Part shown: positions 37,198-62,450 of the stretch, in pieces
Position numbering within the stretch: the stretch's first letter is position 1
How the letters are laid out: each line of letters starts with the position of its first letter
DNA from: Candidatus Saccharimonadales bacterium
GTDB taxonomy: Bacteria; Patescibacteriota; Saccharimonadia; Saccharimonadales; Saccharimonadaceae
Reading direction: 5' to 3'
Length of the DNA stretch: 64,000 nucleotides
Assembly (NCBI GenBank): GCA_039928925.1
Contig: JBDSSF010000003.1
Coordinates: 124,001 to 188,000 of the forward strand
The notes under the pieces: generated by a model
Seen by the model: only the letters and a program-made list of their open reading frames with translations
Databases searched by the model: none
Told to the model about the DNA's origin: nothing
Translations under genes and position numbers: made by a program

Positions 37198-37472
37198 TAC
37201 TTTGATAGATAGTGGACAAACTGTGTACACTCAGAGGAAACAAACCAGTACAACCTGTGTGGTATTGTCCCCAGTAAAGAACGATAGCCTACCTGACAAT
37301 CATAATTGGTCGGACAACCTTGTAGTTATACGAACAGTTGTACGTTACTTACCCTCTGCCCTATCCACATATAAAATATGCAATCTACCTCTTATGAATA
37401 CATTTTTTACCCAGTTTCCACAACGACTACTAATAGCAACTACCAAAGGAAATATTTAAAAAGGAACTAATA
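37198..37472. other. Intergenic region dnaA-dnaN with DnaA-box-like sites
   Basis: Two sites resemble DnaA boxes: CTATCCACA (37361-37369) and GTTTCCACA (37414-37422). This spacer may be a second part of a bipartite origin. No convincing gene is present: one open frame that runs through it is the continuation of a frame inside dnaA. AAGGA lies 8 bases before the dnaN start. Confidence 0.45.
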
Positions 37473-38573
37473 ATGAAACTCTCAGTCACTCAAGAAAATC
37501 TATCAAAAGCACTGACAATAGTAGGACGAGTAGCAAGTAGTAAAACACAACTTCCTATTTTAAGTAACATCCTCCTTCGTACAGATGGTACTCGCCTACT
37601 TATCGCTGCAACAAATTTAGAAATCGCTACAACCCAACATATCGGTGCTAAAATTACCGCCCCAGGTGCAATTACAATACCCGCAAAGCTTGTTGTTGAA
37701 TTTGTCTCTAGTCTTCCAAAAGGAACTGTTGATTTAGAAGTGAAAGACAGCCATCTTAGTATTTCTACAGGTAGTTATAGCTCAACAATCCACGGCGTCA
37801 TTGCTGATGAGTTCCCTGAGCTACCAACAATTGATGAATCAGCATCGGTTCACTACACAATCAATACAACAGATTTTAAACAAGCCGTTTCACAAACAAT
37901 CGTGACGAGCGGTAGTGACAACACTCGTCCTGTCCTGACCGGTGTATTTTGGCACTCATTTGAAGGATATCTCTACCTCGCTGCAACTGATGGCTATAGG
38001 TTATCAGAACGAAAACTTATCGAAACAAAAAGTGAGATTGCCGCAATCATTCCAACAACAACACTTCAAGAAGTACTTCGAACTCTAACAGATGATGTAA
38101 ATGAAATTGATGTATTATTTGATGAGACTCAAGTTAGGTTTAGGATTGGCGAATCAGAAGTGACAAGTCGCCTTATTGACGGTAACTATCCAAATTACAG
38201 ACAACTAATACCTGCAAAATCAGAAACAGAAATTGTTGTTTCAACCAGTGATTTTACAAGAATCACGAAGATTGCTGGACTATTCGCTCGTGAATCTGGT
38301 GGCAGTATTACAATAACAGCAGATAAAGAGAAGCAAAGCTTTGCAATACATTCAATCGCCTCACAGATTGGTGAAAATACGTCACACTCAGATGCGAAGA
38401 TTACCAATGACGGCCAAGTGACATTAAACTCTCGCTATCTTAGTGAGGCACTATCTGTTATTGATGGTGATACAGTTATTTTTGGATTTAGTGGAAAACT
38501 GTCCCCTTGTATCCTTACAACGAAAATAAAAGATGTAACTTATAAACACATTATTATGCCTCTAAAAAGCTAA
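37473..38573 (+). CDS. dnaN: DNA polymerase III beta sliding clamp
   Basis: 366 residues with the three-domain clamp pattern: MKLSVTQENLSKALTIVGRV at the start, LPILSNILLRT, a central GVFWHSFEGYLYLAATDGYRLSE, and the C-terminal LSEALSVIDGDTVIFGFSGKLSPCILT. The end KHIIMPLKS corresponds to the usual YVIMPMR(L). It holds the replicase on DNA. recF follows after one base. Confidence 0.97.
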   Translation: MKLSVTQENLSKALTIVGRVASSKTQLPILSNILLRTDGTRLLIAATNLEIATTQHIGAKITAPGAITIPAKLVVEFVSSLPKGTVDLEVKDSHLSISTGSYSSTIHGVIADEFPELPTIDESASVHYTINTTDFKQAVSQTIVTSGSDNTRPVLTGVFWHSFEGYLYLAATDGYRLSERKLIETKSEIAAIIPTTTLQEVLRTLTDDVNEIDVLFDETQVRFRIGESEVTSRLIDGNYPNYRQLIPAKSETEIVVSTSDFTRITKIAGLFARESGGSITITADKEKQSFAIHSIASQIGENTSHSDAKITNDGQVTLNSRYLSEALSVIDGDTVIFGFSGKLSPCILTTKIKDVTYKHIIMPLKS

Positions 38574-38574
38574 C

Positions 38575-39612
38575 ATGACACTCCTCCGTCGGCTGAAAGT
38601 TCAAAATTTCCGTACCCATCAAGCGATGGATATTACTATTCATGACGGTGTCACCCTTATTACAGGATCAAATGGTAGCGGTAAAACATCACTCATTGAA
38701 GCAATTTATATCGCACTACGCGGATCCTCTTTTCGTGGAGCTGACCTTGACATCGTTCGCCATAGTAGTGAATGGTGGCGGATCGATTTACTAAGCGATG
38801 ATCAGACGACACGGAGTGTTTTGTTTGATTCTTCAAAATCAACTGGCCGTAAACGATTTATCATAGACAGTAAGACGACATACCGCCTTCCGCAAAAGCA
38901 TAAATCTCCCGTTGTATTGTTTGAACCGGATGATCTTCGACTCTTACATGGATCACCAGCACGGCGTCGTTTATTTATAGATAGCTTTATTGGGCAATTA
39001 GACCCCACCTATACGTCAACTCTTCATAAATATGAACGAGGACTCAAGCAGCGCAATAATTTGCTTAAAAAGCCGTACATCGCTGACGATGAACTATTTG
39101 TATGGGATTTGCTACTCAGCGAATATGGGTATGAGATTATTCAAAAAAGAGTTTACTATACTACCCTTCTTCAATCAGAACTAGAGTTAACCTATAATTC
39201 AATTGCACATACTGACGATGAAGTGAAAATACATTACTCACATGACATATCTCAGCAGAAACTTCTCGCAGACCTCCATGATCACCATATGAAAGATAAG
39301 CTACTCGGTAATACGAGTGTCGGACCACACCGTCATGATATTGAATTTATTTTTAATACGATGCCCGCGACAAGTGTTGCATCAAGGGGTGAAATTCGTA
39401 GTATTGTATTAGCACTAAAGTTCCTTGAAGTGAAGATTATCGAAACGAATCTTGGACAAAAACCAATTATTTTACTAGATGACGTCTATAGTGAACTCGA
39501 TGAAACCCGTCGCCATAAGCTCGTCGACAGTATTAGTGAGTATCAGGTAATTATGACAAATACTCACGGTCTGCCAGAGGCAAAGACATATAACCATATT
39601 GAATTAAACTAG
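38575..39612 (+). CDS. recF: DNA replication and repair protein RecF
   Basis: 345 residues. It begins LLRRLKVQNFRTHQAMDITI, followed by Walker A ITGSNGSGKTSLIEAIY. The ABC-like signature is in the region VASRGEIRSIVLALKFLE, with Walker B ILLDDVYSELDETRR. RecF loads RecA at gaps with RecO and RecR. Its stop codon overlaps the convergent neighbour's stop (CTAG). gyrB, which often follows, is not present here. Confidence 0.96.
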   Translation: MTLLRRLKVQNFRTHQAMDITIHDGVTLITGSNGSGKTSLIEAIYIALRGSSFRGADLDIVRHSSEWWRIDLLSDDQTTRSVLFDSSKSTGRKRFIIDSKTTYRLPQKHKSPVVLFEPDDLRLLHGSPARRRLFIDSFIGQLDPTYTSTLHKYERGLKQRNNLLKKPYIADDELFVWDLLLSEYGYEIIQKRVYYTTLLQSELELTYNSIAHTDDEVKIHYSHDISQQKLLADLHDHHMKDKLLGNTSVGPHRHDIEFIFNTMPATSVASRGEIRSIVLALKFLEVKIIETNLGQKPIILLDDVYSELDETRRHKLVDSISEYQVIMTNTHGLPEAKTYNHIELN

Positions 39613-40289
39613 TTTGTTAGTAGTACCGGTAAACCAAGATCGATCGCATTAACTTTACTTAGGACATCGTGAGGAATTTGCGGATAATCTCTTGCAGCTA
39701 AAGTTATTGACGGTGGATTTGTTACAAGAACCCATCCATTCGTTTCTTTTTTCATGACAAATCGGAGACGGTCACGACTTAATGAGTCAGTTCCCGTGTA
39801 GTTGAGTGTGCTTCCAAACCACTCACCATGCTTATATAGACTTCCTTCATTCAGTGAGTAGAGATTCTTTAGATTTGGGCTATCGCGATCAAGAGCAGCA
39901 AGAATTCCGGGGAGCTCTGAGTTTAATTTAGTTGCAAGATATGTATTGTTATAATCAGCAGTAATATTTTCACTTACAGGCGTATCACCAACGATTAGCT
40001 TTGTGGTTGCATCGTTAATATTTTCACCCGTTGGTTTTAGGGTATAAATTCCCTTCTTAAGAGTCATCTCTTTGCCTTGTTGTATAGTTTGATTAAATTC
40101 TCCAAGTCCACTTGATATACCAGACGTTGCATCTCCGTCATAAATGTCTACTTTTTGAATAAGCGTACTATCAAACGTGACAATTACTTTTTGAATGGAA
40201 TTAATATAATTTACATAGATAACGACAGGCGTAATAATAATAACGAGTACAATAACGGCAATAATAATTTTTCGGTATTTATATAACAT
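39609..40289 (-). CDS. Single-pass membrane protein with extracytoplasmic domain
   Basis: 226 residues: a short basic N-terminus, one helix (about 8-27) and an extracytoplasmic domain of about 200 residues. The beta-rich stretch VIVTFDSTLIQKVDIYDGD and the segment KKGIYTLKPTGENIND resemble a PEGA-like surface domain. C-terminal markers are FVMKKETNGWVLVTNPPSITL and DYPQIPHDVL. I do not recognise the family. It is the last gene of the long leftward cluster of secretion genes, two bases after its neighbour, so it is likely an accessory part of that machine. Confidence 0.65.
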   Translation of the reverse strand: MLYKYRKIIIAVIVLVIIITPVVIYVNYINSIQKVIVTFDSTLIQKVDIYDGDATSGISSGLGEFNQTIQQGKEMTLKKGIYTLKPTGENINDATTKLIVGDTPVSENITADYNNTYLATKLNSELPGILAALDRDSPNLKNLYSLNEGSLYKHGEWFGSTLNYTGTDSLSRDRLRFVMKKETNGWVLVTNPPSITLAARDYPQIPHDVLSKVNAIDLGLPVLLTN

Positions 40290-40291
40290 AA

Positions 40292-40657
40292 CTATTTCTC
40301 CAGCGGGTTTTTATAGTCAATAAATTCTATTTTATAGTCCGTTGGATCGTATCCCCAACTCTGTAATTTACCAATTGCAGTATATCTGTAGCGTGGTGAT
40401 GGTGTGCGAATAGTAAGTGTTATTTGATTTGTTGTCTGGCTGTCTGTTTTATAGCTAATATTATAATAAGGATCTTGGTACGGAAGTCGTGAAACAATTG
40501 GGTTATCCGTTAAAAATGAGCTACTCGGATCGATTATAGCGGGTGGTTGTGATTTCATAAGTAACGCCCCCCCGACAATCACAAGTGCAAAAATAATAAG
40601 TATGACCACTGCAATTATTTGCCGGATATATCTATCAATAAATTCTTTTAGTGCCAT
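40292..40657 (-). CDS. Small single-pass membrane protein
   Basis: 121 residues with one N-terminal helix (about 12-33) and an extracytoplasmic domain of about 85 residues that contains NISYKTDSQTTNQITLTIRT. A helix followed by a small beta-rich domain is also how VirB8-like and pseudopilin-like proteins look, but the similarity is only in layout. It lies one base from each neighbour, in the same operon. Function is unknown. Confidence 0.6.
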   Translation of the reverse strand: MALKEFIDRYIRQIIAVVILIIFALVIVGGALLMKSQPPAIIDPSSSFLTDNPIVSRLPYQDPYYNISYKTDSQTTNQITLTIRTPSPRYRYTAIGKLQSWGYDPTDYKIEFIDYKNPLEK

Positions 40658-40658
40658 A

Positions 40659-41147
40659 TTATACCTTTACCGAATTATCATTTTTTAATACTTTTGATTC
40701 ATCATCTTTAATTTCTATAGTAAATTCAGTATCACTAACCATCTTTATAGTTACAAAAATATACTTTGTACTACCAATATCACCAAGCCGCGCTTTAAAA
40801 GTGTAGGTTCGCGAGCTTTTATCAAATAATAAAGACTTTGCGTTGATTGCGACCTGATTATAGGTGTTTTTATATGTATCAGTAACAGTTGCCTGTATGA
40901 CATTTTGTATCTTTTGATATTGAACAGATGATATACCGAGTTTTGTAAGTAAAGCACCTCCGTACACTGGAGTTTGTGGTAACTTTTCACCTGAAGTTAC
41001 ACCGTTTACTGTTATAACAAGACCTGTATCAGGATCAAGCGCATCATATGCAGTTTGATACTTTGCCTGATAAATAAAATACACACCAGTAGCCGCTGCG
41101 ATGAGAAGAAGTATGAGAGCTGTGAGTATGCCGTATTGTTTATTCAT
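40659..41147 (-). CDS. Single-pass membrane protein, secretion-cluster accessory
   Basis: 162 residues: one N-terminal helix (ILTALILLLIAAATGVYFIYQ) followed by an extracytoplasmic domain with ITVNGVTSGEKLPQTP and YIFVTIKMVSDTEFTIEIKD. Ends highly charged. I do not recognise the domain. It is nine bases downstream of the three-domain hydrolase. It and the two proteins after it all share the plan of one helix plus a small outer domain, as VirB8-like scaffold proteins do. Confidence 0.6.
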   Translation of the reverse strand: MNKQYGILTALILLLIAAATGVYFIYQAKYQTAYDALDPDTGLVITVNGVTSGEKLPQTPVYGGALLTKLGISSVQYQKIQNVIQATVTDTYKNTYNQVAINAKSLLFDKSSRTYTFKARLGDIGSTKYIFVTIKMVSDTEFTIEIKDDESKVLKNDNSVKV

Positions 41148-41156
41148 ATATCTTTC

Positions 41157-43535
41157 CTATGGTTTTATTGCTATTGTTGCACTTCGGAATTCTGATGCGC
41201 CGTATATTAGATTTGGGTCCCAGGGCTTCTGGTTATATGCATCAGTACCTTCTGAAGGAGCGGCAGGATCACCGATAAGATATTGGCCGTCTGCTGTTAT
41301 GCCACGAAGAACGATGAAGTGACCACCACTTGTAAATGGTTTTGCTCCAGCTCCACTGACGATAACCATATTTCCGGACTTGAGAGCTGAGTCAATTTTC
41401 AATTTTATGTCTGATGGTGGTGGCGAGTAAGCAAATTGTAATTCACCTTTTACACCCCAGTTGGCGAGAATTTTTGGCATTTCATTTGCGTTATATGGTG
41501 TTGAATTTGCTTTAATCCACTCACCAACAATATAGGGGTTAATCGATTTATCTTTCCAAGTTGCAATTACCATCGCCGGTGATGTAGCGCCACAAGCGTT
41601 ACCAGCGTATGATCCGCCTGAGTATTCTTTCTGTCCCCATTGAGGATCACCTTGACGATAAAAGACGAAGTCACCTGCTGCAACTGCTGGACCCATGCTG
41701 GTTGGTGTTGCTGCTGCACATCCAGAAGCTGAAGCGGCAGTTGGAGTTCCCGCGGCCGTCGGTACTCCGGTTGCAACCGGAGCTTTATCTGCGTAAAGAT
41801 CATAAACTCGCTTTGCTTCTCCACCACGAACAGTTCGGACGGCATCAGGAGTATCACCAGACTCCTCGTATCCACGGAAGTCGTCACTTGGTCCCCTAAT
41901 ATTAGAACCTTTTCGTCCATGAATTGTAATTGCAGCCTCAACAGGATCAGTTTCTGTTTTTAGTACTGCGAGCATTTTTGCCCAGGTTGGACTGTTGAGT
42001 TCCTGCCAGACAAATCCTAACTGACCGCCCATATCGATCATACTGACATTTTTTGACTTTATAAATGCGACAAGTGGATCTTGACGTTCTGGGAATGTCC
42101 ACTGAACGAGTCCAAAACCTGTTCCACTTTGTGGGACGTAATTAGGATCACTCGTTGTGGTACTAGGTTGAACAGCAGCAGGATTTAAACCAGATTCTTG
42201 AACCATATTGCCAATAAAACCAGATGCTTGTGCTAATGTAAGACCATTATTCATAAAGAACGATAGAATCTTTTCGGTATTATCTTTACCGGTGAGTTCG
42301 ATTGATGTTGTTGCTCCCGCTGCAGTACAACAACCACTAGTGGCTGAACTTGTGTCTGTAGAAGCGTCAGAGGCTGCAGGGGTTCCACCGCGGAATTTTA
42401 TTGCATGTTGATAAGCTACTTCAATTTTATCCGTTGAAACCTTTGCAGAGACCGTTTTAATAACCGCCGCAAGATCAGTACTATCAAACAAAGGCATATC
42501 GACACCTGCATTCATAGCTGCAGCGACTGCATCAGGAACACTCATGTTTGTATACTTTGTCATTGGGGTAAGATCATCAGTTGTGATTAGCCCAGCGAAT
42601 CCAATTGTTTCATGGAGGTACGCGATAGCTTCTGGATTGATACTGACAGGCGTACTACCCCACTCATTAATATATCCGTTACTAAGCATGACAGCAGCAC
42701 CGTTTTGATTACCAATAGCTTTGTATGGCTTGAGTTGACCAGCATCTTCCATGGCCTTGAGGCTTTGAGAGGCAGATTTACCTTTGTCTGTATTTTGAGT
42801 AAGATCACCAATACCTGGGAAGTGTTTATACACAGGTTTTACACCACCATCACTAAGTCCTCTGGCAAATGCTCCAGCTTTTTCAGAAATAACGTCAGGA
42901 TTAGTTGACCAGGTACGTTCGGCAATTGTCATAAAACCTTTTGGATTTTGGATATCTAATACAGGAGCGAGATCGATGTTTGCTCCATTAGCCATCATCG
43001 CATCTGCAACTTTTTTACCTTGAATTTCGATTTGCGATGCAGTCATATTCGCACCCATATCTTTAGCTGACGGCATACTTGGAGCAAAACGTGTTACTTT
43101 ACCGCCTTCATCGTCGGCACTAATGAACATTGGCGTACCATTAGATGTATTTAGATCTGTAAAGAATTTTGCATTTAACTTTGAAAAATCTTCGCCGTTA
43201 AAGAATACTCCACCAATTTTAAAATCTTTTACCGCTGTGCTCACAGCATCTGTTTGAGTTGGATCAAAGCCAACAACAAAAGTCTGGGCAATCTTTTGCT
43301 CAGGAGTAATACTTGCAGGTGCTGCTGTTGCGACGCCTGCTGGAGTTGCACTACAGGATTTTGCAGAACGGCTATATGTGAGGATATCATTACCTGCGTA
43401 GAACGCAGGATCATCACCAGTTGACTGTGCATATGAAATGGCTGGTGAGAAAGTTGAAAAAACAAAGGCGCTGATCATAGTGAATATAACGAATCGCTGA
43501 CCAATACGGATAGACTTATTTCGAATTATTCTCAT
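41157..43535 (-). CDS. Three-domain cell-wall hydrolase: GH3 glucosaminidase, lysozyme, C39-like peptidase
   Basis: 792 residues with an N-terminal signal peptide or anchor (about 1-36). Residues about 77-370 are a GH3 domain like NagZ: DDEGG (141-145), KHFPG (237-241) and the nucleophile region TTDDL (318-322). Residues about 415-540 resemble a phage tail lysozyme: ILSFFMNNGLTLAQASGFIG and VQESGLNP, with Glu447 as catalytic candidate. Residues about 622-792 resemble C39-like peptidases: FYRQGDPQWG, ACGATS with Cys648, and GGHFIVL with His739. Ala/Thr/Ser linkers separate the domains. The enzyme could cut both sugar and peptide bonds of peptidoglycan. It overlaps its upstream neighbour by four bases, inside the secretion operon. 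Confidence 0.85.
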   Translation of the reverse strand: MRIIRNKSIRIGQRFVIFTMISAFVFSTFSPAISYAQSTGDDPAFYAGNDILTYSRSAKSCSATPAGVATAAPASITPEQKIAQTFVVGFDPTQTDAVSTAVKDFKIGGVFFNGEDFSKLNAKFFTDLNTSNGTPMFISADDEGGKVTRFAPSMPSAKDMGANMTASQIEIQGKKVADAMMANGANIDLAPVLDIQNPKGFMTIAERTWSTNPDVISEKAGAFARGLSDGGVKPVYKHFPGIGDLTQNTDKGKSASQSLKAMEDAGQLKPYKAIGNQNGAAVMLSNGYINEWGSTPVSINPEAIAYLHETIGFAGLITTDDLTPMTKYTNMSVPDAVAAAMNAGVDMPLFDSTDLAAVIKTVSAKVSTDKIEVAYQHAIKFRGGTPAASDASTDTSSATSGCCTAAGATTSIELTGKDNTEKILSFFMNNGLTLAQASGFIGNMVQESGLNPAAVQPSTTTSDPNYVPQSGTGFGLVQWTFPERQDPLVAFIKSKNVSMIDMGGQLGFVWQELNSPTWAKMLAVLKTETDPVEAAITIHGRKGSNIRGPSDDFRGYEESGDTPDAVRTVRGGEAKRVYDLYADKAPVATGVPTAAGTPTAASASGCAAATPTSMGPAVAAGDFVFYRQGDPQWGQKEYSGGSYAGNACGATSPAMVIATWKDKSINPYIVGEWIKANSTPYNANEMPKILANWGVKGELQFAYSPPPSDIKLKIDSALKSGNMVIVSGAGAKPFTSGGHFIVLRGITADGQYLIGDPAAPSEGTDAYNQKPWDPNLIYGASEFRSATIAIKP

Positions 43536-44020
43536 GATAGTGCAATCCTTACTTCCGGAGGTAGATCGATAGCATCTGGAAATGTTGTTCCAGGTCCCGC
43601 GATAACCTCTAATCCACCAGCAGCTGTTCCGTTATCTTTAATAATTATTTTTGCATCATCAGTCTGTACGGTTGTTAGTCGAATTGTGACAATGTACCAA
43701 GCTTTTATAGGTGAAACAACAGTAAGAATAATATAGTTAGCTTTTCCATTAGATCTAACAAGGGGCTGAGGAGCTGCTTTTATTATAGTACTATTTAGCT
43801 CATCATTTGTACGGTTTGGATACTCGTTAATTTTAATTGGACTATTACCAACCGTTGGAGTGCTCGTAGGAGGTGTAATTTCAGCGGTTGTATCTGGACT
43901 ATTTGAAATAACTGGCGTAACCACCTCTTTCGGCTTCGTGACGACGTACCATATTAAAACCCCACCAACAATAAGTAAAATTACAGTGATAATGATGACA
44001 AACTTATTTTTAATCATCAT
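43532..44020 (-). CDS. Single-pass membrane protein with Pro/Thr-rich stalk
   Basis: 162 residues: one helix (about 7-26), a Pro/Thr/Ser-rich stalk (TPPTSTPTVGNSPIKINEYP) and a small domain with NYIILTVVSPIKAWYIVTIRL. It overlaps both neighbours by four bases, so it is translated together with the NlpC/P60-bearing protein and the three-domain hydrolase. I do not recognise the family. Confidence 0.6.
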   Translation of the reverse strand: MMIKNKFVIIITVILLIVGGVLIWYVVTKPKEVVTPVISNSPDTTAEITPPTSTPTVGNSPIKINEYPNRTNDELNSTIIKAAPQPLVRSNGKANYIILTVVSPIKAWYIVTIRLTTVQTDDAKIIIKDNGTAAGGLEVIAGPGTTFPDAIDLPPEVRIALS

Positions 44021-47000
44021 GATGCTGGTACCGTTGCACCTGGTTTTTTAAATCGAAGAACATGTTCCCATGCTCCCCAGGTTCCACTGGCCGGACCAAC
44101 TTGTTTTGGAAATGCCGTATTATCTGTGTGCGCACCGAATTGCTGGAATTTTTGAGCTGCAACATCATTTGATACAACAATTTCTGTATGCCCAGTACGA
44201 AGAAGGATATCTCCAGGACCTGCTTGAGCTTTTGGTATTTCAGTGAAGTTTGAGTTGCCAAGCATGTTGCCAGTCGCAATATCTCCAACATCCACACCAA
44301 ATGCGTCAAAGATTGACATACGAACAAGACCACTACAATCTACAATAGCGTCTGTTCCAGCCTTAAAGCCACCAGCGTTAAATTTAGCCATGAAGGCTGC
44401 TGCTGTTCCACTATGTCCACCTGCGTATACGTATCCGTAGTCATCAAACTTGAATGAATGACAACTAATCTGGCCAAGATCATCAGCTGGAAGTGTTTTA
44501 CATGCCTCTGGTGCGGTTGCACTAACTGTACTTCCACCAGTTGCAGCTGTTGATGTGCCACCATCCTGTGCGCTTGGATCTGGTTCGGAATCCATACCAT
44601 CATTAATTGGGTTGTCTATATTGTAGACACGGTAATATTTAAATGCTACTGATCCACTTGGCCCATCACCCATACATTCCGTACCAAGTCCAGCACCGTT
44701 GTTATCATCCGCATTATCAGACTCACCCCATCCAGCTGTGCGGTCTGTACATAGTTTCTGCCATGCCTCGTAGTCACTTCCGGCAACTGCTTCGCCAGTA
44801 TCACTATTTATCTGTTGGTTATCAAGCATATAGTTGAGTGCAGTTGACGAGTCCATATTAAGTTCATCAGTTGGAAGAACGTAACGGACATTACAAAATA
44901 CATCGGCATCAATTCCAACATCATCATATCCTGGATCGGGACATTTGCTAAATCTATCTGGATTAAAAACCTGATCAGCACTTGCCTGTGGGATAATACT
45001 ACTAAAAGCTGCACCGAGGAACGATGGAATACTTGTCAGCGCTGCTGCGATACTACCTGTTGACTCAACGATCGTTGGATTTACTTTTCGCACTAAAGAA
45101 CCAAGGAAAGAGTACTGTTTCGTGACATCAAAAGGCGTACTCTTCGCTTCATATGTTTCCATAGCAACATCCTGACTCTTCACTTCATCAGTAATGGCGA
45201 GATATGACTTTAACGAGGCTTTATTAGCAGGTTTAAGACCACGCTGTTTTGCGAAGTCACCCATAAGGGCTCCACCACCTGAAAATGCCGCGTCACCAAC
45301 CGCAACGTTTTTCGTATCAGCCCCAACAACTTTACCAGCAATGATATCAGCAAGCTGGGCCTCTAGGAATGGGGTTGCAAAACCAATTGCAACGGACGCT
45401 CCAACTGTTGCGAACGTAAGTATACCAAATGATCCAACGGCGGATGCAAGTCCTGCAATAAGACCAGCTGTTCGAGCCCACCAACTCTGAACAGTTTTAC
45501 AGGTATTTCTGATATTTTCGCGCGCAATCTTTGGAGTTTTCGCTGTCCCTAGATTTAAGATTCCAGCGATTGTATCCACAACACCCGATAGTGTTCCGAC
45601 AAGTCCACCACCCGTCATAAACTGCTGTGATCTTGAAGTGAGTGTTGGCGCTTCGTTGTATGCAGCTGTTTTATAGCCCGGTGAATCTAAGGCGCTTTTA
45701 CCGTAAAAGGAATTTGATACATCCTTTGTTTGAAGGTTTCCTGTTGTCTTATCAATACCAGTAATACTCGATTCATCAGTTGCTGTTTTATTAAGATCAA
45801 GGTCGGTTAATTTTTTTCCAACATACTCAACATCACCTGGCTTTGCATCCCCTGCTTTAATTGCATCAGCAGTGTTAAAGAATACCATTGCAAACTGTGC
45901 AAGCTGGACGGCACGAGTGATTTTTGCAGCTGCTGCAACTGCCCTCGCTGTGTTATAGACAGTACAAGCTGTGTCTGCATATCCGATAATAGATATTCCC
46001 TTGAGGCCAGATTTAAGGACACCTTCTGTCGCGTGACCTCCAACTTTAGCAGAGTCATTAATACGTCCAACTCCACCAGAGCTATCAGCTATTTCTTTAA
46101 ACTTTGGATTAGGATTTTTATTAGCATCAAGTTCATATACTTTTTCACCTGTTGAATCAGTGTAATATTTCCCTTTTCCATCATTATCATCTTGAACCGG
46201 GCCTTTATCTGTTAGACCCGTAAAGGCCTTGTCACCGGCAGTTGCATTATCGACTGCCTTATTCCGTTCTTCGTCGGTATTACCTACAACTTTTTTGGAT
46301 TTGTCGGTTTTAAACTTCGTATATACTTTTTTAGCAACCGAATCCGAAAATCCAGCAAATTTTGGATTGTACGTTTTTCGAAGTGCACTACGGAGAGCCG
46401 GATCACTTTTTGCTAGTTCAGTGAGATGACCTGGATCAGTTATCTTAACTCCGTCTGGAGTAGATATTCCTGTAATAGTATTTCGACCTGTGAGACCATT
46501 TTTTTCGGTTGTTATGTCTTTAAACCCAGCATTTTTAAATTGCTGAACCTGTTTATCTGACATAGTCGTAAATTTACAACGAATCTTCACGCTACCGCAT
46601 GAACTAAGTTTTGGAGACAAACCACTTAGTCTTGCTTTAAGAACTTTATCCGTACGAAGATCCATTGTCGTAAGTTGATCATTTAAACTTCCACGGAGTG
46701 TTTCACTGAATTGAATTGGTAGTAAAGGAATACTAACGAGCGAAAATAGACCACCACCCCCAAGCAGTGCAGTGACGATAAGTGCCATCGGTCCTTTTTT
46801 CTTCGCAACATTTACAACACCACTAAATCGCCCACCACTATTTTGAGCTGAGTCATTTTTTGTAAATGAATTTTTCCAGCCACCAGCGTTTTCTTCTTGG
46901 TTTTTAGCGGCATCACGGCTACTATTACTATCCTCGTTATCATTTTTACTAATCTTCTTGGTACTAAGCGGCTGACCATCGTGATTTTCAGGATCGTTTG

Positions 47001-47127
47001 CAAATGCTTCAGCTTGATCAACACCACTTTTACTATACGCATCCGGAAACTGTTCCGCAGCATGAAGATTAGCCGGGTTATAGGCTTCGTCTTGCTCCTC
47101 TTTACTATCACTTGTTCTCAGTGCCAT
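44017..47127 (-). CDS. Large secretion-cluster membrane protein with C-terminal NlpC/P60-like domain
   Basis: 1036 residues. A charged cytoplasmic N-terminus (1-110) precedes a membrane helix (about 113-138). A long middle part has further hydrophobic stretches, near KITRAVQLAQFAMVFFNTA and GLIAGLASAVGSFGILTFA. The last 150 residues resemble NlpC/P60: IVDCSGLVRMSIFDAFGV with Cys931 and RTGHTEIVV with His980. It could cleave peptide cross-links where the machine passes through the wall. It starts its own sub-operon: TATAAT on the minus strand (47139-47144) ends eleven bases before the ATG, inside the virB4 stop region. Confidence 0.75.
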   Translation of the reverse strand: MALRTSDSKEEQDEAYNPANLHAAEQFPDAYSKSGVDQAEAFANDPENHDGQPLSTKKISKNDNEDSNSSRDAAKNQEENAGGWKNSFTKNDSAQNSGGRFSGVVNVAKKKGPMALIVTALLGGGGLFSLVSIPLLPIQFSETLRGSLNDQLTTMDLRTDKVLKARLSGLSPKLSSCGSVKIRCKFTTMSDKQVQQFKNAGFKDITTEKNGLTGRNTITGISTPDGVKITDPGHLTELAKSDPALRSALRKTYNPKFAGFSDSVAKKVYTKFKTDKSKKVVGNTDEERNKAVDNATAGDKAFTGLTDKGPVQDDNDGKGKYYTDSTGEKVYELDANKNPNPKFKEIADSSGGVGRINDSAKVGGHATEGVLKSGLKGISIIGYADTACTVYNTARAVAAAAKITRAVQLAQFAMVFFNTADAIKAGDAKPGDVEYVGKKLTDLDLNKTATDESSITGIDKTTGNLQTKDVSNSFYGKSALDSPGYKTAAYNEAPTLTSRSQQFMTGGGLVGTLSGVVDTIAGILNLGTAKTPKIARENIRNTCKTVQSWWARTAGLIAGLASAVGSFGILTFATVGASVAIGFATPFLEAQLADIIAGKVVGADTKNVAVGDAAFSGGGALMGDFAKQRGLKPANKASLKSYLAITDEVKSQDVAMETYEAKSTPFDVTKQYSFLGSLVRKVNPTIVESTGSIAAALTSIPSFLGAAFSSIIPQASADQVFNPDRFSKCPDPGYDDVGIDADVFCNVRYVLPTDELNMDSSTALNYMLDNQQINSDTGEAVAGSDYEAWQKLCTDRTAGWGESDNADDNNGAGLGTECMGDGPSGSVAFKYYRVYNIDNPINDGMDSEPDPSAQDGGTSTAATGGSTVSATAPEACKTLPADDLGQISCHSFKFDDYGYVYAGGHSGTAAAFMAKFNAGGFKAGTDAIVDCSGLVRMSIFDAFGVDVGDIATGNMLGNSNFTEIPKAQAGPGDILLRTGHTEIVVSNDVAAQKFQQFGAHTDNTAFPKQVGPASGTWGAWEHVLRFKKPGATVPAS

Positions 47128-47139
47128 AAATTACTTCTA

Positions 47140-49032
47140 TTATACGCTATATTCGCCAGGGTTCATGTACCCATTATTAGCTACAGGCTCCCCTGAAACC
47201 GGGGCTTTATTTGGCTTAACTGAATCAACAGGATTTGTTGAAATAAGGCTTTGTTCAGTCTGTGAAGGAACAATCTGAATGTGAACATGGTTTTGTCCAG
47301 CGAAGAAGAGGCCCTGCCCGACCGGGAAGTTCGCGAGTCTTTTTCTTTCTTCCTCGGTTAGCTTAAACACGTCAGATAACACATCGACAGCACTTGACGA
47401 TTGCTTTAAAAGAAGCTGCATAGAGGAGTTGGCGACGATTGCACGGCCCATCTTACTTCCCATAAAGTCTTCGACATCTTGTGTGATTGTCGTAAGGCCA
47501 AGGTAGTATTTACGTGCACGCTTTGCGAGACTAAACAGAAAGTTTGCAGAGTCGTCGTATTTCATTAATTGCCACGCCTCGTCGACAATAAGCATACGTT
47601 TTTTCTGAACACTACGCGTAATGTTCCAAATATGTGAGAGGACAATATACATCGCAACTGGTCTAAGCTCGTCTTCAAGATCACGGATATTAAAGACAAC
47701 CATATTATTGTTGATATCGATATTGGATTGCTGAGAGAAGATTCCAGCAAATGTACCAGATGTATATTTACGAAGACGCTGCGCAAGTGCAGGTCCTGTT
47801 CCGCCCATGTGAAGGAGGGTGTCATATAGATCAGAAATAGTTGGCGGTAGTGAGTTATGTGTGAGTGGATCACTCGTGATTCCTGCACGTGCATATGTAT
47901 CAATGAGTCCCTGATCTAGGTCAGCTTCTTCAGCTGGAGTTAATGCAGACATAGCTTGTCCTGCTGCTGTTGTTTGAGTTCCACCAAGCATGAGGCGGAG
48001 TAGTCCATGAAGTGTTACGAGGTTCGCTCGTAGTGCATCATCTGCTTCATCACTATCAATTACACGCGGCAAGTCAAATGGATTGATACGTGTATCTGCA
48101 TTGAGGCTGAGGCGGATATAACTACCACCGACTGCATCACATAGTTTCTGATACTCATTTTCAGGATCGATAATAAGGATTTCTGACCCAACCATCATCG
48201 CTCGTAATGCTTCGAGCTTAATAGTAAAGGATTTACCAGCACCAGATTTCGCGAACACGACCATATTAGCGTTCTCAAGACTGAAACGATCAAAAATAAC
48301 GAGTCCATTATTATGCATATTGATGCCGTAAAGAACACCTTTTTCCTGAGTAAGATCTGCGCTCGTGAATGGGAAGCTGGTACTGATTGCACCAGTGTTC
48401 ATGTTACGACGAATTTGTAGCTGATCACTCATCTGCGGAACGGTACTATTAAGTCCCTGCTCCTGTTGGCTACTAGCAACCTTACTAAATATAAGTTGCT
48501 GACCAAATAACGTTTCGATTTTATGTTGCACGAAGCTGAGTTCATCTAAGCTGTCTGCATATAACGTTACATATAGTCCATAACGGAAGAATCGCTCAGA
48601 ACCAACCTGAAGTTCATCACGAAGCTCTTCAGCGTCCTGTAATGCCGCTTCAAGGCCAGGGTCACGTGTCCTACCCTTTTCATTGTTGATCGACATTGTT
48701 GCTTCGAGTTGCGTCACTTTTTTACGAAGGTTTGACAGCACTACCTGGCTTTCGACAGGATAGATAAACATACTAATATCGAGTACCTCATCAATATTGA
48801 TAAGTGAACTGAGCCATCCTGTATAGATTTGGCGAGGGTATCCATAGATATAGAGAGTTCGGCCGTACTTTGTTCCAAGGCGGAAATGACTTGAATGAAT
48901 TTCCAGACTACTTGGCGCGATAAGATCACGAAGAGTCGTCATACCCTTCAAAAAAGCTGCTTCTATTTCTGCCTGTTCTCTTGCTCGCTGTTGAGCTGCA
49001 ATATCGATTGGATCAAGTTGTTTTTTAGCCAT
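47140..49032 (-). CDS. virB4: VirB4/TraC-family secretion ATPase, motor part
   Basis: 630 residues. The N-terminal 230 residues include the VirB4 region SSHFRLGTKYGRTLYIYGYP. The motor has Walker A FAKSGAGKSFT (SGAGKS at 263-268), IIDPENEYQKL and Walker B MLIVDEAWQLM (about 480-490). C-terminal motifs are KRARKYYLGLTTITQDVEDF and GQGLFFAGQNHVHIQI. It powers pilin or substrate movement on the cytoplasmic face. Its start shares one base with the stop of the preceding gene, which carries a further N-terminal VirB4-like part. Confidence 0.93.
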   Translation of the reverse strand: MAKKQLDPIDIAAQQRAREQAEIEAAFLKGMTTLRDLIAPSSLEIHSSHFRLGTKYGRTLYIYGYPRQIYTGWLSSLINIDEVLDISMFIYPVESQVVLSNLRKKVTQLEATMSINNEKGRTRDPGLEAALQDAEELRDELQVGSERFFRYGLYVTLYADSLDELSFVQHKIETLFGQQLIFSKVASSQQEQGLNSTVPQMSDQLQIRRNMNTGAISTSFPFTSADLTQEKGVLYGINMHNNGLVIFDRFSLENANMVVFAKSGAGKSFTIKLEALRAMMVGSEILIIDPENEYQKLCDAVGGSYIRLSLNADTRINPFDLPRVIDSDEADDALRANLVTLHGLLRLMLGGTQTTAAGQAMSALTPAEEADLDQGLIDTYARAGITSDPLTHNSLPPTISDLYDTLLHMGGTGPALAQRLRKYTSGTFAGIFSQQSNIDINNNMVVFNIRDLEDELRPVAMYIVLSHIWNITRSVQKKRMLIVDEAWQLMKYDDSANFLFSLAKRARKYYLGLTTITQDVEDFMGSKMGRAIVANSSMQLLLKQSSSAVDVLSDVFKLTEEERKRLANFPVGQGLFFAGQNHVHIQIVPSQTEQSLISTNPVDSVKPNKAPVSGEPVANNGYMNPGEYSV

Positions 49033-49871
49033 TACATTGTCTCCTCGCCGGCTTGATTAATTCGAGGTGCTTGACCTTCTCCTTTACGAACATACGTACT
49101 CGTGACAGTTTCAAAGTCACCGAGGGGCTCACGTACTGCAGTGTCAGGGTTGTAAACATTATAGTAAAGCTCACCAAGCTCCTTAGTATTTAACTGTACA
49201 CAGCGAACACCAATTTGGAATAACCCACTCATAACTGAGTCGGTACGGTTTTTGATCTCATCCTTAGCTTTATCGTAGGCAACCTTATCAATTTTTGTTG
49301 CACTTAGGGTTTGTTTTGCAAATACTTTTCCAAAAAAACCCTTTCCCTGTTCGACGATGTTACTAAGATCACCAGCTGGGAAAAATGGTATGACTACAAA
49401 AAAGCTTTTGTCCATAATATTCGCTTCTTGGGATAAGACGTCGATAAAGTTTATATAGTCATCCATGAGGACATTTAGAAGCATGTTATCTTGTGATTTA
49501 CGAATTGCAGATAGACGGTCTATGTATGGGCCGATATCGACACGTTGCGACCTGATAAATATCTGAACTGGAAAATAGAGAGCATTGAGGAAGTTTTGGT
49601 AGCTGAACTCAACACCTTCGCGTTCACGGCTACTCATAAGATCAAAGTTAATTGATTTACATGCGATAACAGATCTGAAACTACCGTCATTCATAATAAC
49701 CATACCATCACGGATTTCTGAGATAAGTAAACTAGTCTGGGTAGAATTCTGCCCAGTTTGCTTTTTGACAGCTACTTCAGGAGCTTTACCAGGTACTGGC
49801 TCTGCTACAGGTTGACTTCCGATGGCTCCAACTGGCACTTGGCCAGGGACGGGTTGATTATTTGGCGGCAC
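49032..49871 (-). CDS. TraC-like protein, VirB4 N-terminal-like domain
   Basis: 279 residues from a GTG start. After a Pro-rich leader (about 1-40), LLISEIRDGMVIMNDGSFRSV and VEFSYQNFLNALYFPVQIFIRSQ match the amino-terminal, non-motor part of TraC/VirB4 proteins. No P-loop is present. It is coupled to the motor gene by a one-base overlap. It may form the part of the hexamer that touches the membrane subunits. Whether this is a split of one ancestral gene or a separate subunit cannot be told from the sequence alone. Confidence 0.8.
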   Translation of the reverse strand: MPPNNQPVPGQVPVGAIGSQPVAEPVPGKAPEVAVKKQTGQNSTQTSLLISEIRDGMVIMNDGSFRSVIACKSINFDLMSSREREGVEFSYQNFLNALYFPVQIFIRSQRVDIGPYIDRLSAIRKSQDNMLLNVLMDDYINFIDVLSQEANIMDKSFFVVIPFFPAGDLSNIVEQGKGFFGKVFAKQTLSATKIDKVAYDKAKDEIKNRTDSVMSGLFQIGVRCVQLNTKELGELYYNVYNPDTAVREPLGDFETVTSTYVRKGEGQAPRINQAGEETM

Positions 49872-49907: not shown

Positions 49908-50930
49908 CTATCGCAGTGAAATTAATACTTCTTCGTCAAGATGTTCTTGTTTTTGACGAATTCGATTAGCCTCATGAGCGATTGTCTCAATAGATAGATC
50001 AGAGTTACTTGCAAGGCTTATTATATCAGGAGATACACGATTCTCGCTAGTGTTTGTTTCAGTAGTCTCAGGCGCTTGAATAACAGGTTGAATTATAGGT
50101 TCTGGAGCTAATTGTTGTTGTGGTTGAGGGACAGGAACTGGTTCAACTGGAGCTTGTCGTGGTTGTGATTGAATAGGCTGGTTATCGCTAAGTGGTCGAA
50201 TAACAGTTTGCTGCATTGAATTCGGATACGGATTAAAAGTAAGATGAGGATCTTGTATATTGGTGGGTGTCTGAGTCAGTGCTGCATACGGATCTGGAAC
50301 GGCGATTTGAACCGGCGCTGGCTGTGCTATAGGCTGCTGGTGCATTTGATTTATCATATCCTGACGTCGCTTTACGTCTGCTTGGCCGATCATTGTGTCA
50401 AAGGATTGAGAAACTTTGGCATTATTATCAAGCACATCTTCTGCCTGTTGAGCTTCAAAAAACATGTCAGTTACCATTGAGTTATCTGGTTCTGTTGGCA
50501 TCGGAACACCACGAACTGCCCAGCCTCCACTATCAACTACGCTTGCGAGGTAAGATAGACGCTTCTCAGCCTCATTTTGAGATATGTTTTTAGTTCGCTG
50601 TACCTCAATAACCTTCGGAGCAGTGATCTCAACAAGGGACTGAATACCATCAGGTTCCCATAGTCGACGACGAGGTTTTAAATAAAATGAGACTATTGCT
50701 GCGAGATAGATTTCCATTGGTTGATCTTTTCTGAGTGGAAGTGCAAGCGCGCCGAAGAACAGGATGATTGGGAGAGGAATAATGGCTAGCGGTATGAATA
50801 GCTGAGAAAGTCCCCACGCAAGTGCGATTGAAATAGCGACGATAATTAAGTATATAAATTGGCGGAAGCTAAACGGGCCGATGAGTTTGTCATCAGCTTC
50901 GACATCTTGAGGTACTTTATAGACCGCCAT
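49908..50930 (-). CDS. PrgI-family (VirB3-like) membrane protein with long tail
   Basis: 340 residues. It begins YKVPQDVEADDKLIGPFSFR, the PrgI signature, followed by two helices (about 25-66) and the conserved EIYLAAIVSFYLKPRRRLW. Residues about 100-340 are a hydrophilic, Gln/Pro-rich cytoplasmic tail with low-complexity stretches, much longer than in typical PrgI proteins of about 120 residues. VirB3-like proteins bind VirB4. It is the gene before the TraC-like one. Confidence 0.88.
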   Translation of the reverse strand: MAVYKVPQDVEADDKLIGPFSFRQFIYLIIVAISIALAWGLSQLFIPLAIIPLPIILFFGALALPLRKDQPMEIYLAAIVSFYLKPRRRLWEPDGIQSLVEITAPKVIEVQRTKNISQNEAEKRLSYLASVVDSGGWAVRGVPMPTEPDNSMVTDMFFEAQQAEDVLDNNAKVSQSFDTMIGQADVKRRQDMINQMHQQPIAQPAPVQIAVPDPYAALTQTPTNIQDPHLTFNPYPNSMQQTVIRPLSDNQPIQSQPRQAPVEPVPVPQPQQQLAPEPIIQPVIQAPETTETNTSENRVSPDIISLASNSDLSIETIAHEANRIRQKQEHLDEEVLISLR

Positions 50931-50945: not shown

Positions 50946-51545
50946 TCATTTTGTAGTTAGTGTGGCTGCCACTGTTGCCATAGTTTTTTCAAACCCCATA
51001 TCGGCAATATCAAAACAACGAATACCGTATAATTTACATTGTTTTTGGAGATATTTACCGTATGCTCTATTAAAATATGACCATGCCTGGACATAGTGAA
51101 AATCCTTATCGGGACTTTTTTGAGCACGCGCAACACGTTCAAACTGATCAGGGCTGCTATCTATAACGTATGTGATATGAGCAATATCAGTAACCGTTAA
51201 CGCAAACCTTGGGAGGATGTGTGAACCTTCAAGTAAGAAGTCGCCCTTTGTATCATTAATTTCCTTTTTAATAAATGTTTGGAGCGCCGTTGCCTCATTT
51301 ATGAATAGATTAACGAGTTCATCGGTATTTTCGCTATGCTTCTTCTCCCAGGCTGATCCTCTAAGGCTATCAATAGTGCTCCAAGCAAAAAGTGGATGAC
51401 TACTATCTTTTTCTAGTTGAGACCGTATTTTTTTTCGTATTAAATCAGATGACAGTCGTGTTAAGTTAGTTTCGAGACAAATATTTTTCGCAAGCGTTGT
51501 TTTTCCGCAACGCATTGCTCCGCCAAGAATCTTATTCATAAGCAA
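50946..51545 (-). CDS. P-loop kinase-like protein in the secretion cluster
   Basis: 199 residues. A Walker A motif (GGAMRCGKTTLAK) sits at residues 8-20. DFLLEGSHILPRFALTV and VARAQKSPDKDFHYVQAWSYF follow, which fits AAA/kinase-like proteins related to 2-phosphoglycerate kinase or shikimate kinase folds. ILGGAMRCGKTTLA begins almost at the N-terminus; the second ATG (51539) is also possible. It has no membrane segment. It lies seven bases after the VirB6-like gene and fifteen before prgI. Its substrate and its link to secretion are unknown. Confidence 0.7.
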   Translation of the reverse strand: MLMNKILGGAMRCGKTTLAKNICLETNLTRLSSDLIRKKIRSQLEKDSSHPLFAWSTIDSLRGSAWEKKHSENTDELVNLFINEATALQTFIKKEINDTKGDFLLEGSHILPRFALTVTDIAHITYVIDSSPDQFERVARAQKSPDKDFHYVQAWSYFNRAYGKYLQKQCKLYGIRCFDIADMGFEKTMATVAATLTTK

Positions 51546-51552
51546 GACACTA

Positions 51553-54500
51553 CTAAGGCCTTGTTCTTACAGTAGCACCAGGCCAAATTGGAGTTGTTGT
51601 TGGTGCTGGAGCCGTAGCGACGGTTGGTGGTGCTGTAGGTACTGTATATGGATTTGAAGGTGTTGGTGCTGGCGTTGGTGCTGGACCAGTACGAACGGTA
51701 GGTGTATTTGATGGTGGAGGGTTTGTTCCTGGCACAGGACCTGGAGGAGTAGGGCTAGGTGTAGCACTATTAGCAATTGCTTGCAAAGCTTTCTTTCCGT
51801 CAGTGCCAATGGTTGAATTAAGTTTTTCGTTTGCAAGTACTGCTGTTGCAGTTTCGGCACTTATACCACCTGAATTTCCAGCTGCTGTGATCGCATCTGC
51901 TGTTTGACCAGCAATTTGTTCATGAGAGAGCCCACCCCAAGTACCTGCCTTGCCGCTAGTCTCATCGAGCTTTGTATTTTGTGTATCTCTGGACCACGCA
52001 TCCATACCCGCGTCACGTCCTTTTAAGTTTGAATTTGAAATATCTCTCCGAATAGATTCTCCAACCGCTCCAGTAGGGTTTATTGCTGGAACAATAGCGC
52101 CAGTGGCAGGATCAATCGTGTCTGTAAACGTATTTCTTAACTTGCTAAGACCCTTTGCTCCAGTTTGATTTGCTAAAATACTTGTAGCTGCACGAGCTTT
52201 AGTTGACGCTTCTTCCCTGACAGACTCTGATTTTGTAGAGTCGTTTGCTATTGCAACAGAATCCCTAAGCGCTTTAACCGCACCATCAACAAGTTGATCA
52301 GGAGCGAGTCTTGCTTTAAGGAGGAATTCTTCATTTTCGATCTTTTCTTTGTCAATTTTATTTAATTGTGCTTGAGCTCTTGCTTGATATCCGGTAGCAT
52401 TCTGCCCAGCCACACTTTTTGCAAAATCTCTATTTGTTACAGCTTCTTTAAGTATTTCTTCGTTTTGAAGGTGTTTGAATTGTTCATCGCGGCCGCTTCT
52501 TTGTGCGTTTATCTTATTGCGTCGCCTGATAGCTCCAGCACGTCCAATCATTGAAGGTCCACCGTTCATCGCACGAATACCTCGACTATTTTTTGAATCT
52601 GCTTTAAAGTTTGCAGCTCCCTTTTTCATGCGATCAAACGGACCTCTGTTTGGATTATTCACAAATGCACCAACTTTACCGAGTACTCCACCGGCAGCCT
52701 TCATAATAAGTGGAGTCAGAGCAAGAGGTATGATTGAAACGAGCGCACCCATAACTTGGATAGCAAGCTTTAATCCTTCTTTGGTACCGGCTGGCACGGT
52801 AGTCATGATGACAGTTGATGCGAGTGATGCCGCACCAAACACAAGACCTATAATTGGGTACATAAGTAACATCGTTTGAAGTAGGCTCCGCCACTTTTTA
52901 AACATAGATTCTGTGTTTGGTAGTAAAAACGCAACAAATGCAAGAGGAGAAATAACAATTAACAGGACTACTAACGCCTGACGAACGGTTAACACAATAA
53001 AAACAGTTACAATAGCAATCAAGGCTATTATAAGTGCCGGAAGAAGTGCAGATAGTCCCACGAAAAGCGCTCCAACTCCAACCGCAACTCCCGCAAGGAC
53101 ACCTCCCGCTATACCAGACCATCCTTTACCAGTTGCACCACTCGAGAACTGTGCGCTAACTGGTGCAATATTTGCATTTATGTTTTTAAAAACTCCATAG
53201 ACAGATGTACCAACAATATTTGATACATCGACCGCAATTGAACATATCCAAAACGATATATTTACCAATATTGCTGCTGCGACTAACCTTGGAAGCATCT
53301 TTTTGATACCGTAGTTACTAACACCAAAACTAGTTATTTGTGAAAAAATAATGATCAAAAAGACTATAACAAATGCAACATTCGCAAAGTTACGCATGAC
53401 ACCCCAAGTGTCATAAATAGTGGTATTATCTCCTGTCCATAAAACTGGCTGAATAGTTAATAGTGCCGATACGACAGTGTATGCGGCATCTACAATTTTT
53501 GCCATGAAATCAACAACAGGACACAATATCCATCCAATACCATCTACAACACAGGATGTCGTGTCTTTTGCACCACCAGCGGCAGGTGCTACGATAGTAC
53601 CGTCAGCTCCTCCCGCAGCTTTTTCTCGACCAAAGACACACGCGACATTTCCTGGACTCTGATCTGGATTTGAGGGATAGGTTTTATTACAAAAAGCAGC
53701 ATCTGTTTTGTTTTTAAAACCCGCATCGCATGCTGCCAGGTCCGCTGGAACTCCTTTATACTGGTCTAGACAGCTTACAGGCTTGTGAGTAGCGAACCAA
53801 GTCACATATGCATCAATATTTTTATCAATAAGATTATCTTTTATAGAATTGGTTGCGTCTGACGGTTTATTACAATATGGATTGTAGCCTTGACCATCCT
53901 CTTGACCGAAGGTTGCCATCGAAGTGTCTGAAAGGTTAACATCAGGTTTAGTTTTATATAACCAAGCCTCTTTTACACCCAGATCATTAACAATAGTTAC
54001 CGAAAGACCAGTAGATTTCTCATCCGTTGTAGCTTGTGAGAATGGCTTAACTCTATCAGCGCACCTTGCCTCAAATTGTTTTATACCTATATAGTATGAA
54101 AGATATCCTGGATCACCGTGGTTTCCTGCACCACCAAAGTACTTTATTTCAATAGCTTTCTTAACAGACGTTACCTTATCTGCAGTTTGATCGATCTTGA
54201 GATCACTTGTACTTGGCCCTGTGCATTCACTTTTATCAACTCTTGATACACCAGCACCCTTCATAATGTCACAGTAAGCCTCAAGCTTACCAGTGTAACC
54301 ATAGAGCTGCACTGCCGAGCTTATAAAGCCCGCATCGTCACAATTCACAAGTCCTTCGCTTGAACCAATGTAGCCAATAGACACACCCGTCCCTGTATTG
54401 AACCATGATCCGCTCACGACGTCAGTTGTGCTTATAGGGCTTTTAGCAGACGCATTAGCAAAGCAAGCTGTCAGAGCTCTGTAATATAAAAAAGCTTTTG

Positions 54501-54627
54501 CTTGGTCGTCGATTGGAGCTGTGTCAGCAGGACTAGCTAAAGCTGGGTTTGCGATAGAAACAGTACTGATAATTGTAGATACAACCATTAGTAATGCCAA
54601 TAATGAATACTTGATTTTTGTCTTCAT
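51553..54627 (-). CDS. VirB6-like polytopic protein with extended C-terminus (copy B)
   Basis: About 1024 residues from the ATG at 54627, which has AAGG at proper spacing and a signal peptide ending near PALA; two more ATGs lie just upstream. Residues about 30-370 are extracytoplasmic, with many cysteines. From about 410 to 670 are several helices with FANVAFVIVFLIIIFSQIT, NYGIKKMLPRLVAAAILVNIS and AVDVSNIVG, and SPLAFVAFLLPNTESMFKKW as a conserved loop. The tail (about 680-1024) is charged and coiled, ending in a Pro/Thr-rich region. The core matches the 57138 protein, so the two are paralogues. VirB6/TrbL proteins form the inner-membrane channel. Confidence 0.85.
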   Translation of the reverse strand: MKTKIKYSLLALLMVVSTIISTVSIANPALASPADTAPIDDQAKAFLYYRALTACFANASAKSPISTTDVVSGSWFNTGTGVSIGYIGSSEGLVNCDDAGFISSAVQLYGYTGKLEAYCDIMKGAGVSRVDKSECTGPSTSDLKIDQTADKVTSVKKAIEIKYFGGAGNHGDPGYLSYYIGIKQFEARCADRVKPFSQATTDEKSTGLSVTIVNDLGVKEAWLYKTKPDVNLSDTSMATFGQEDGQGYNPYCNKPSDATNSIKDNLIDKNIDAYVTWFATHKPVSCLDQYKGVPADLAACDAGFKNKTDAAFCNKTYPSNPDQSPGNVACVFGREKAAGGADGTIVAPAAGGAKDTTSCVVDGIGWILCPVVDFMAKIVDAAYTVVSALLTIQPVLWTGDNTTIYDTWGVMRNFANVAFVIVFLIIIFSQITSFGVSNYGIKKMLPRLVAAAILVNISFWICSIAVDVSNIVGTSVYGVFKNINANIAPVSAQFSSGATGKGWSGIAGGVLAGVAVGVGALFVGLSALLPALIIALIAIVTVFIVLTVRQALVVLLIVISPLAFVAFLLPNTESMFKKWRSLLQTMLLMYPIIGLVFGAASLASTVIMTTVPAGTKEGLKLAIQVMGALVSIIPLALTPLIMKAAGGVLGKVGAFVNNPNRGPFDRMKKGAANFKADSKNSRGIRAMNGGPSMIGRAGAIRRRNKINAQRSGRDEQFKHLQNEEILKEAVTNRDFAKSVAGQNATGYQARAQAQLNKIDKEKIENEEFLLKARLAPDQLVDGAVKALRDSVAIANDSTKSESVREEASTKARAATSILANQTGAKGLSKLRNTFTDTIDPATGAIVPAINPTGAVGESIRRDISNSNLKGRDAGMDAWSRDTQNTKLDETSGKAGTWGGLSHEQIAGQTADAITAAGNSGGISAETATAVLANEKLNSTIGTDGKKALQAIANSATPSPTPPGPVPGTNPPPSNTPTVRTGPAPTPAPTPSNPYTVPTAPPTVATAPAPTTTPIWPGATVRTRP

Positions 54628-54668
54628 GTTCATAAACCTTATGATTACATTTAACAACACCCGGGACT

Positions 54669-62365: not shown

Positions 62366-62389
62366 TAGAACTCAGTATAATTAACACTC

Positions 62390-62420
62390 AATAGCCCCCT
62401 CTTTACTATAGGGGGCTATT
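62390..62420 (+). terminator. Terminator of the pilin gene
   Basis: AATAGCCCCCT and AGGGGGCTATT form an 11-bp GC-rich stem with a nine-base loop, 25 bases after the pilin stop. It is followed by CTAGTATT, so the T tract is weak. Confidence 0.7.
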
Positions 62421-62450
62421 CTAGTATTAAAATCTACATATGTGCTTGCA

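Follow-up and report, generated by a model that had tools for sequence, protein, structure and literature searches.

Wall hydrolases of the VirB1/PrgK type accompany T4SS machines, and a gene of Saccharimonadales raises the question of whose wall such an enzyme is adapted to, that of the bacterium itself or that of its host. The window (the whole 64,000-nucleotide stretch of DNA analyzed here, carried by a genome of about 985 kb) contains a single intact ORF for a 792-aa exported wall hydrolase with three Pfam-recognized modules in VirB1/PrgK-type position (41157..43535). Features given below in this dotted form lie on the minus strand. The organism is a probable epibiont, judging from its relatives.

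Domain organization of the hydrolase

The start of the hydrolase gene overlaps the stop of the upstream gene by 4 bp (ATGA). Its product has just one hydrophobic segment, residues 15–33, which forms part of a Sec signal peptide (residues 1–36; 43428..43535) with a cleavage site predicted by eye between SYA and Q. The first module, residues 79–371 (42423..43301), is a NagZ-like GH3 N-terminal domain (PF00933, E 4e-45), the fold of which superimposes on 4yyf with a TM score of 0.85 (Foldseek, AF2 model). The second, residues 414–581 (41793..42296), is a phage-tail lysozyme; Phage_lysozyme2 (PF18013) matches residues 418–539 with an E of 6e-25 and 88.4 bits against a curated cut-off of 28.2, and the module boundaries are those of our own HMM. 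The third, residues 625–758 (41262..41663), is a C39-like cysteine peptidase (Peptidase_C39_2, PF13529; E 2.4e-9, 38.3 bits against a cut-off of 24) with the aligned triad C648/H739/D756.

In the PDB, sequence matches are LpqI and further NagZ-type GH3 proteins, together with phi29 gp13, which matches the lysozyme module (3csr, E 4e-5). The two lysozyme modules are homologous; phi29 gp13, however, belongs to a phage tail and carries a metallopeptidase domain, unlike the window hydrolase. The AF2 model, which rests on a 23-sequence alignment, contains three confident domains separated by two disordered linkers with pLDDT <50, residues 388–409 (42309..42374) and 586–621 (41673..41780). Thus, Pfam and AF2 bear out the original prediction that GH3, phage-tail lysozyme and C39-like domains are joined here by flexible linkers.

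Catalytic residues

The expectation that catalytic residues would be visible in each domain holds for the lysozyme and the C39-like peptidase, but for GH3 only as regards the nucleophile. All 34 homologues compared have the lysozyme catalytic Glu447 (42195..42197) and also Gln478. Cys648 and His739 of the C39-like module are present in all six homologues compared, and Asp756 in most. The GH3 module has both the TIM barrel and the Asp nucleophile of NagZ-type enzymes (Asp320 in TTDDL, 42576..42578, invariant in the alignment). Its acid/base loop, however, reads KHFPGIGDLTQNTDKG, compared with KHFPGHGxxxxDSHxG in NagZ/LpqI; in the alignment with LpqI and relatives, Asn248-Thr249-Asp250 (42786..42794) takes the place of the D-S-H found elsewhere, and the NagZ-type Asp-His dyad is therefore missing.

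NagZ enzymes are characterized by this dyad, and LpqI is exo-acting and not an autolysin (PMC6572805). Because the dyad is absent, activity of the GH3 module is uncertain, and since its relative LpqI is in addition exo-acting, a role of GH3 as a wall cutter appears doubtful from its sequence. Chance decay was rejected as the simplest view, because the Asn-[Ser/Thr]-Asp form recurs across fusions, free GH3s and outside GH3s. It is common to the three GH3-lysozyme proteins described below and to free Saccharibacterial GH3s, and of the 80 closest GH3 loci from other organisms an Asn-x-Asp loop is found in 21 (18 of them Actinomycetota; one of the loops is Asn-Pro-Asp).

The exo-acting, recycling character of NagZ/LpqI enzymes (PMC6572805) would suit a scavenging role, in which fragments of wall are digested as a source of nutrients. 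The window GH3 shares fold and nucleophile with these N-acetylglucosaminidases and differs from them in lacking the Asp-His dyad and in being part of a secreted fusion. Most orthologous hydrolases have no GH3 at all, and the position of the gene is tied to virB4. A nutritional function is, in our opinion, very improbable.

Comparison with known VirB1-type enzymes

The assumption that ordinary VirB1-type enzymes have a single domain is refuted by the literature: the VirB1 proteins of Gram-positive systems contain two or three, as in PrgK (LytM-MUR-CHAP) and TraG (SLT-CHAP) (PMC11323569, PMC12857230). In PrgK, the active domain has the phi29 gp13/phage-tail lysozyme fold and the other two are degenerate or regulatory; no cutting was seen with these flanking domains, which restrain the muramidase, and PrgK binds PrgL (PMC11323569). 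The lack of cutting by the PrgK flanking domains argues against reading the three domains of the window hydrolase as three active cutters.

With PrgK (pCF10, DELTA class) the window hydrolase shares three extracellular wall modules, a Gram-positive-type T4SS, a central muramidase of phage-tail lysozyme fold and a C-terminus of cysteine-peptidase type. It differs in having GH3 and C39 in place of LytM and CHAP, and a signal peptide only, where PrgK has a TM helix and an intracellular domain; with its single hydrophobic segment and neither LytM nor CHAP, it falls outside the DELTA class. Analogously, Tn916 Orf14 and pIP501 TraG (BETA/ALPHA class) share the combination of a glycan cutter with a peptidase in a Gram-positive T4SS, and Orf14, like the window hydrolase, is without an intracellular domain (PMC12857230), but they contain neither GH3 nor C39. 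The peptidase and lysozyme homologues of Southlakia epibionticum ML1 resemble the window hydrolase in position, occupying the same place in a Saccharibacterial T4SS (PMC12102498, PMC10633639).

Multidomain VirB1 enzymes and a lysozyme near Saccharibacterial virB4 are, then, already known. Module exchange at the hydrolase position, the shared tag and the recruitment of GH3, all presented below, were not found described in the searchable literature, outside which most subscription papers lie.

The T4SS neighborhood

The placement of the hydrolase within a T4SS cluster is confirmed by the presence of PrgI and a CD1110-family VirB4, and its operon position near virB4/virB6 is that of a VirB1-type enzyme. 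Upstream of the hydrolase and transcribed the same way, the cluster contains a polytopic membrane protein (51553..54660), probably VirB6-like given its 7 hydrophobic segments and without a Pfam match; PrgI (VirB3-like; 49908..50930, PF12666, E 4e-12); a TrsD/VirB4 N-terminal half (49032..49871, NF041427 of NCBIfam, E 9e-7); and the CD1110-family VirB4 ATPase (47140..49032, NF045971 of NCBIfam, E 7e-110). A small AAA/kinase-like P-loop protein is encoded between PrgI and the VirB6-like gene (50946–51545). Next to virB4 lies B6N (44017..47127), a 1036-aa membrane protein with a C-terminal NlpC/P60-like peptidase at residues 886–1020. The Pfam NLPC_P60 match in the window is weak; B6N was recognized by position and HMM, in 51 ORFs altogether. 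Between B6N and the hydrolase is a 162-aa single-TM protein (43532..44020; ORF and hydrophobicity), which has a 164-aa TM counterpart in the same place in genome G475.

On its other side, the hydrolase gene is adjoined by another 162-aa single-TM protein (40659..41147; ORF and hydrophobicity), for which HMM family comparison found no relative. HMM families further identify a 121-aa ortholog (40292..40657) of a TM protein of about 210 aa located 3' of the hydrolase in relatives, and a conserved downstream TM protein of 226 aa (39609..40289), the homologues of which have a PEGA-like beta domain with a weak Pfam PEGA match. The AF2 model of the 226-aa protein is confident (pLDDT 91.5), and a structure search with it yielded no VirB8 match. 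Its identification as VirB8 thus gains no support from structure, and the docking partner expected for the hydrolase was not found. Conserved single-TM proteins of this kind (39609–40657; PEGA-like in homologues) come after the hydrolase in most loci and are candidates for a docking or wall-spanning part.

Just past the end of the cluster are dnaA, dnaN and a recF-like gene (35827–39612). Patescibacteria are known to have T4SS genes beside dnaA, and the T4SS of S. epibionticum is essential (PMC12102498, PMC10633639). A second and distant VirB4, 40% identical, is encoded in the same genome as the window (G000:C1:62748-64403), with a small M23 peptidase (62149–62445) beside it.

A conserved slot with variable contents

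About 50 virB4 loci of Saccharimonadales were surveyed. The succession virB4 - B6N - hydrolase is found almost throughout, with about 40 loci showing it, and the arrangement from PrgI through the split VirB4 and B6N to the hydrolase is retained across Saccharimonadales. The gene 3' of B6N has wall-hydrolase domains in nearly all classified cases, and the slot nearly always belongs to an exported wall hydrolase. The contents of this slot are lysozyme combined with C39, NlpC-like, CHAP, M23, VanY or Amidase_3 domains, with or without GDSL or GH3; the other families of the order have proteins of the Glucosaminidase, SLT, PlyCA-like or Amidase_2 type there. By hand tally, about 37 proteins represent about 20 module combinations. 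Because the same slot holds so many other combinations, the three domains of the window cannot be viewed as a unique invention; the conserved position of the slot matters more than the three-module fusion.

The hydrolase is single-copy in most loci. The C-terminal peptidase of B6N is also swapped, being NlpC in the window, M23 in several close relatives and VanY in G287. Several loci have further peculiarities. In G015 and G251 (L103, L134) the B6N-hydrolase pair is repeated in tandem, giving two pairs, and one contig of G034 (L097) carries B6N twice, with a wall hydrolase after each copy, so that the pair looks like a cassette that duplicates. B6N of G020 (L092:10324-14895) has 1523 aa, with Exo_endo_phos nuclease-like domains and M23, and the slot protein L111:7242-9497 combines a Beta-lactamase2-like domain with CHAP.

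The part of the hydrolase that remains constant is a short tag. In most Saccharimonadaceae hydrolases a motif like FYSgNDILFYDP, with a consensus of approximately D..FYSgN[DN]ILFYDP, immediately follows the signal peptide; hydrolases of other families of the order have only a vague version of it. The tag of the window, GDDPAFYAGNDILTYSRS (residues 40–57; 43365..43418), scores 26.2 bits with a PWM trained on other loci, the window being left out, a score reached by none of 872 control ORFs. The best-scoring controls include genes from the same slot of other loci (L097, L109, L122).

With its constant N-terminal tag and the variable modules after it, the hydrolase recalls polymorphic toxins, and TM7x is reported to have an early host-killing phase (PMC10768705). 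The hydrolase could accordingly be imagined as a lytic toxin directed against the host, which the T4SS would release or inject, instead of a part of the machine. It has a Sec signal peptide, however, and its gene belongs to the core operon and is single-copy in most loci, with no immunity gene recognized. Moreover, the peptidase and lysozyme homologues directly 3' of virB4 in S. epibionticum are essential for epibiotic growth (PMC12102498). We consider a secreted effector improbable for these reasons.

Rarity of the fusion and origin of GH3

The three-domain order proved rare in relatives; the GH3-lysozyme order is kept in at least two other genomes of the family, and it is reversed in one genome elsewhere. 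In Saccharimonadaceae, PF18013 is present in 213 of 295 genomes and GH3 in 38 of 295; both occur in one frame in at least three genomes (the window, G251 and G475) among the matches listed. The order in G475 (L173:1578-2827) is as in the window, namely a protein ending in CHAP, the 164-aa TM protein and the GH3-lysozyme protein, the last of which is cut by the contig end. G049, from another family, has the reverse order lysozyme-GDSL-GH3-Amidase_3. No such fusion was seen in the 80 GH3 loci from other organisms considered above. Fusions of all three modules were also sought in 50,697 phage records, none of which matches over most of the query. An Enterococcus plasmid lysozyme was considered as a candidate T4SS neighbor; its region is broken by IS elements and gives no information on this point.

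In the GH3 tree, the GH3s of the GH3-lysozyme proteins form one clade (support 99) within a mostly actinobacterial group. The GH3 of G049 has retained the His loop and lies apart from this clade, close to mycobacterial LpqI, and therefore represents a second, independent recruitment. Thus, on the evidence of trees and loops, GH3 was joined at least twice, each time from an actinobacterial-type GH3 lineage.

Tempo of evolution

An indication of the wall concerned comes from comparing the window with five close genomes. VirB4 is 91–92% identical in these comparisons and PrgI 56–68%, while B6N is 28–32% identical and the lysozyme module 23–40%; in most of the five, the peptidase belongs to another family. 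Two penicillin-binding proteins, enzymes of own-wall synthesis, are 67–75% identical.

In the lysozyme tree the window, G034, G009 and one G251 copy group together (99/98), whereas G034 is elsewhere in the VirB4 tree, with G027 (97). Furthermore, a single clade is rejected for the lysozymes of the three same-order fusions (AU p 0.003), whereas their GH3s do form one. This disagreement of lysozyme, VirB4 and GH3 trees points to recombination of modules; the evidence is good but not conclusive, because the alignment behind the lysozyme trees has about 176 columns and the branches are long.

These rates bear on the most serious alternative, a VirB1-type enzyme of the ordinary kind, which would trim no wall but that of the epibiont, for T4SS assembly, its module diversity being neutral tinkering as in Gram-positive conjugation systems. 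VirB1 enzymes of Gram-positive T4SSs do already vary in architecture (PMC12857230), the gene lies within the assembly cluster, and the protein has a signal peptide and no recognizable T4SS secretion signal. The own-wall synthesis enzymes, however, have retained much more identity than a hydrolase at 23–40% with changing modules, so the wall of the epibiont is unlikely to have changed that much. We regard service to the own wall alone as rather unlikely. Relaxed constraint, a change of the own wall, or pressure from phages or immunity on a protein at the surface might likewise account for the fast turnover.

Functional implications

The reading that we favor, with some confidence, is that the hydrolase is the VirB1/PrgK-slot wall enzyme of the chromosomal T4SS of a Saccharimonadales epibiont, adapted most likely to the wall of the host besides its own. 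The host wall is the most likely target of adaptation because exchange of the modules far outpaces change in the ATPase and in the own wall-synthesis enzymes. A changing external wall is thus the likelier selective agent, and the hydrolase is plausibly tuned to it; opening of the host wall fits the fast turnover of modules beside a nearly frozen VirB4.

In the proposed mechanism, the hydrolase would leave the cell by Sec and be held at the T4SS, perhaps through the short post-signal tag. The lysozyme module would cut the glycan backbone and the C39-like module the stem peptides, and the two kinds of cuts together may open a hole for the secretion conduit, as suggested by the conserved catalytic residues and by PrgK. 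The GH3 module, from an actinobacterial-type lineage and with its Asn-x-Asp acid/base loop, is most likely accessory: a putative exo-glycosidase, or a wall-binding or regulatory domain. The wall met in this way would most likely be that of the host at the contact site, in addition to that of the epibiont.

A bolder extension, which we put forward tentatively as a possibility and not as the expected outcome, is that the hydrolase and the peptidase end of B6N constitute a polymorphic cassette, in which the constant tag docks on a nearly invariant T4SS and exchanged modules, some of them actinobacterial, set the host range. If it is true, the hydrolase would be a host-range determinant, setting which host wall the epibiont passes, and the type of module is predicted to follow the type of host wall. 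The T4SS of Saccharibacteria is essential, and a conserved slot for interchangeable wall-cutting modules is a concrete candidate for how these bacteria may cross the wall of their actinobacterial hosts.
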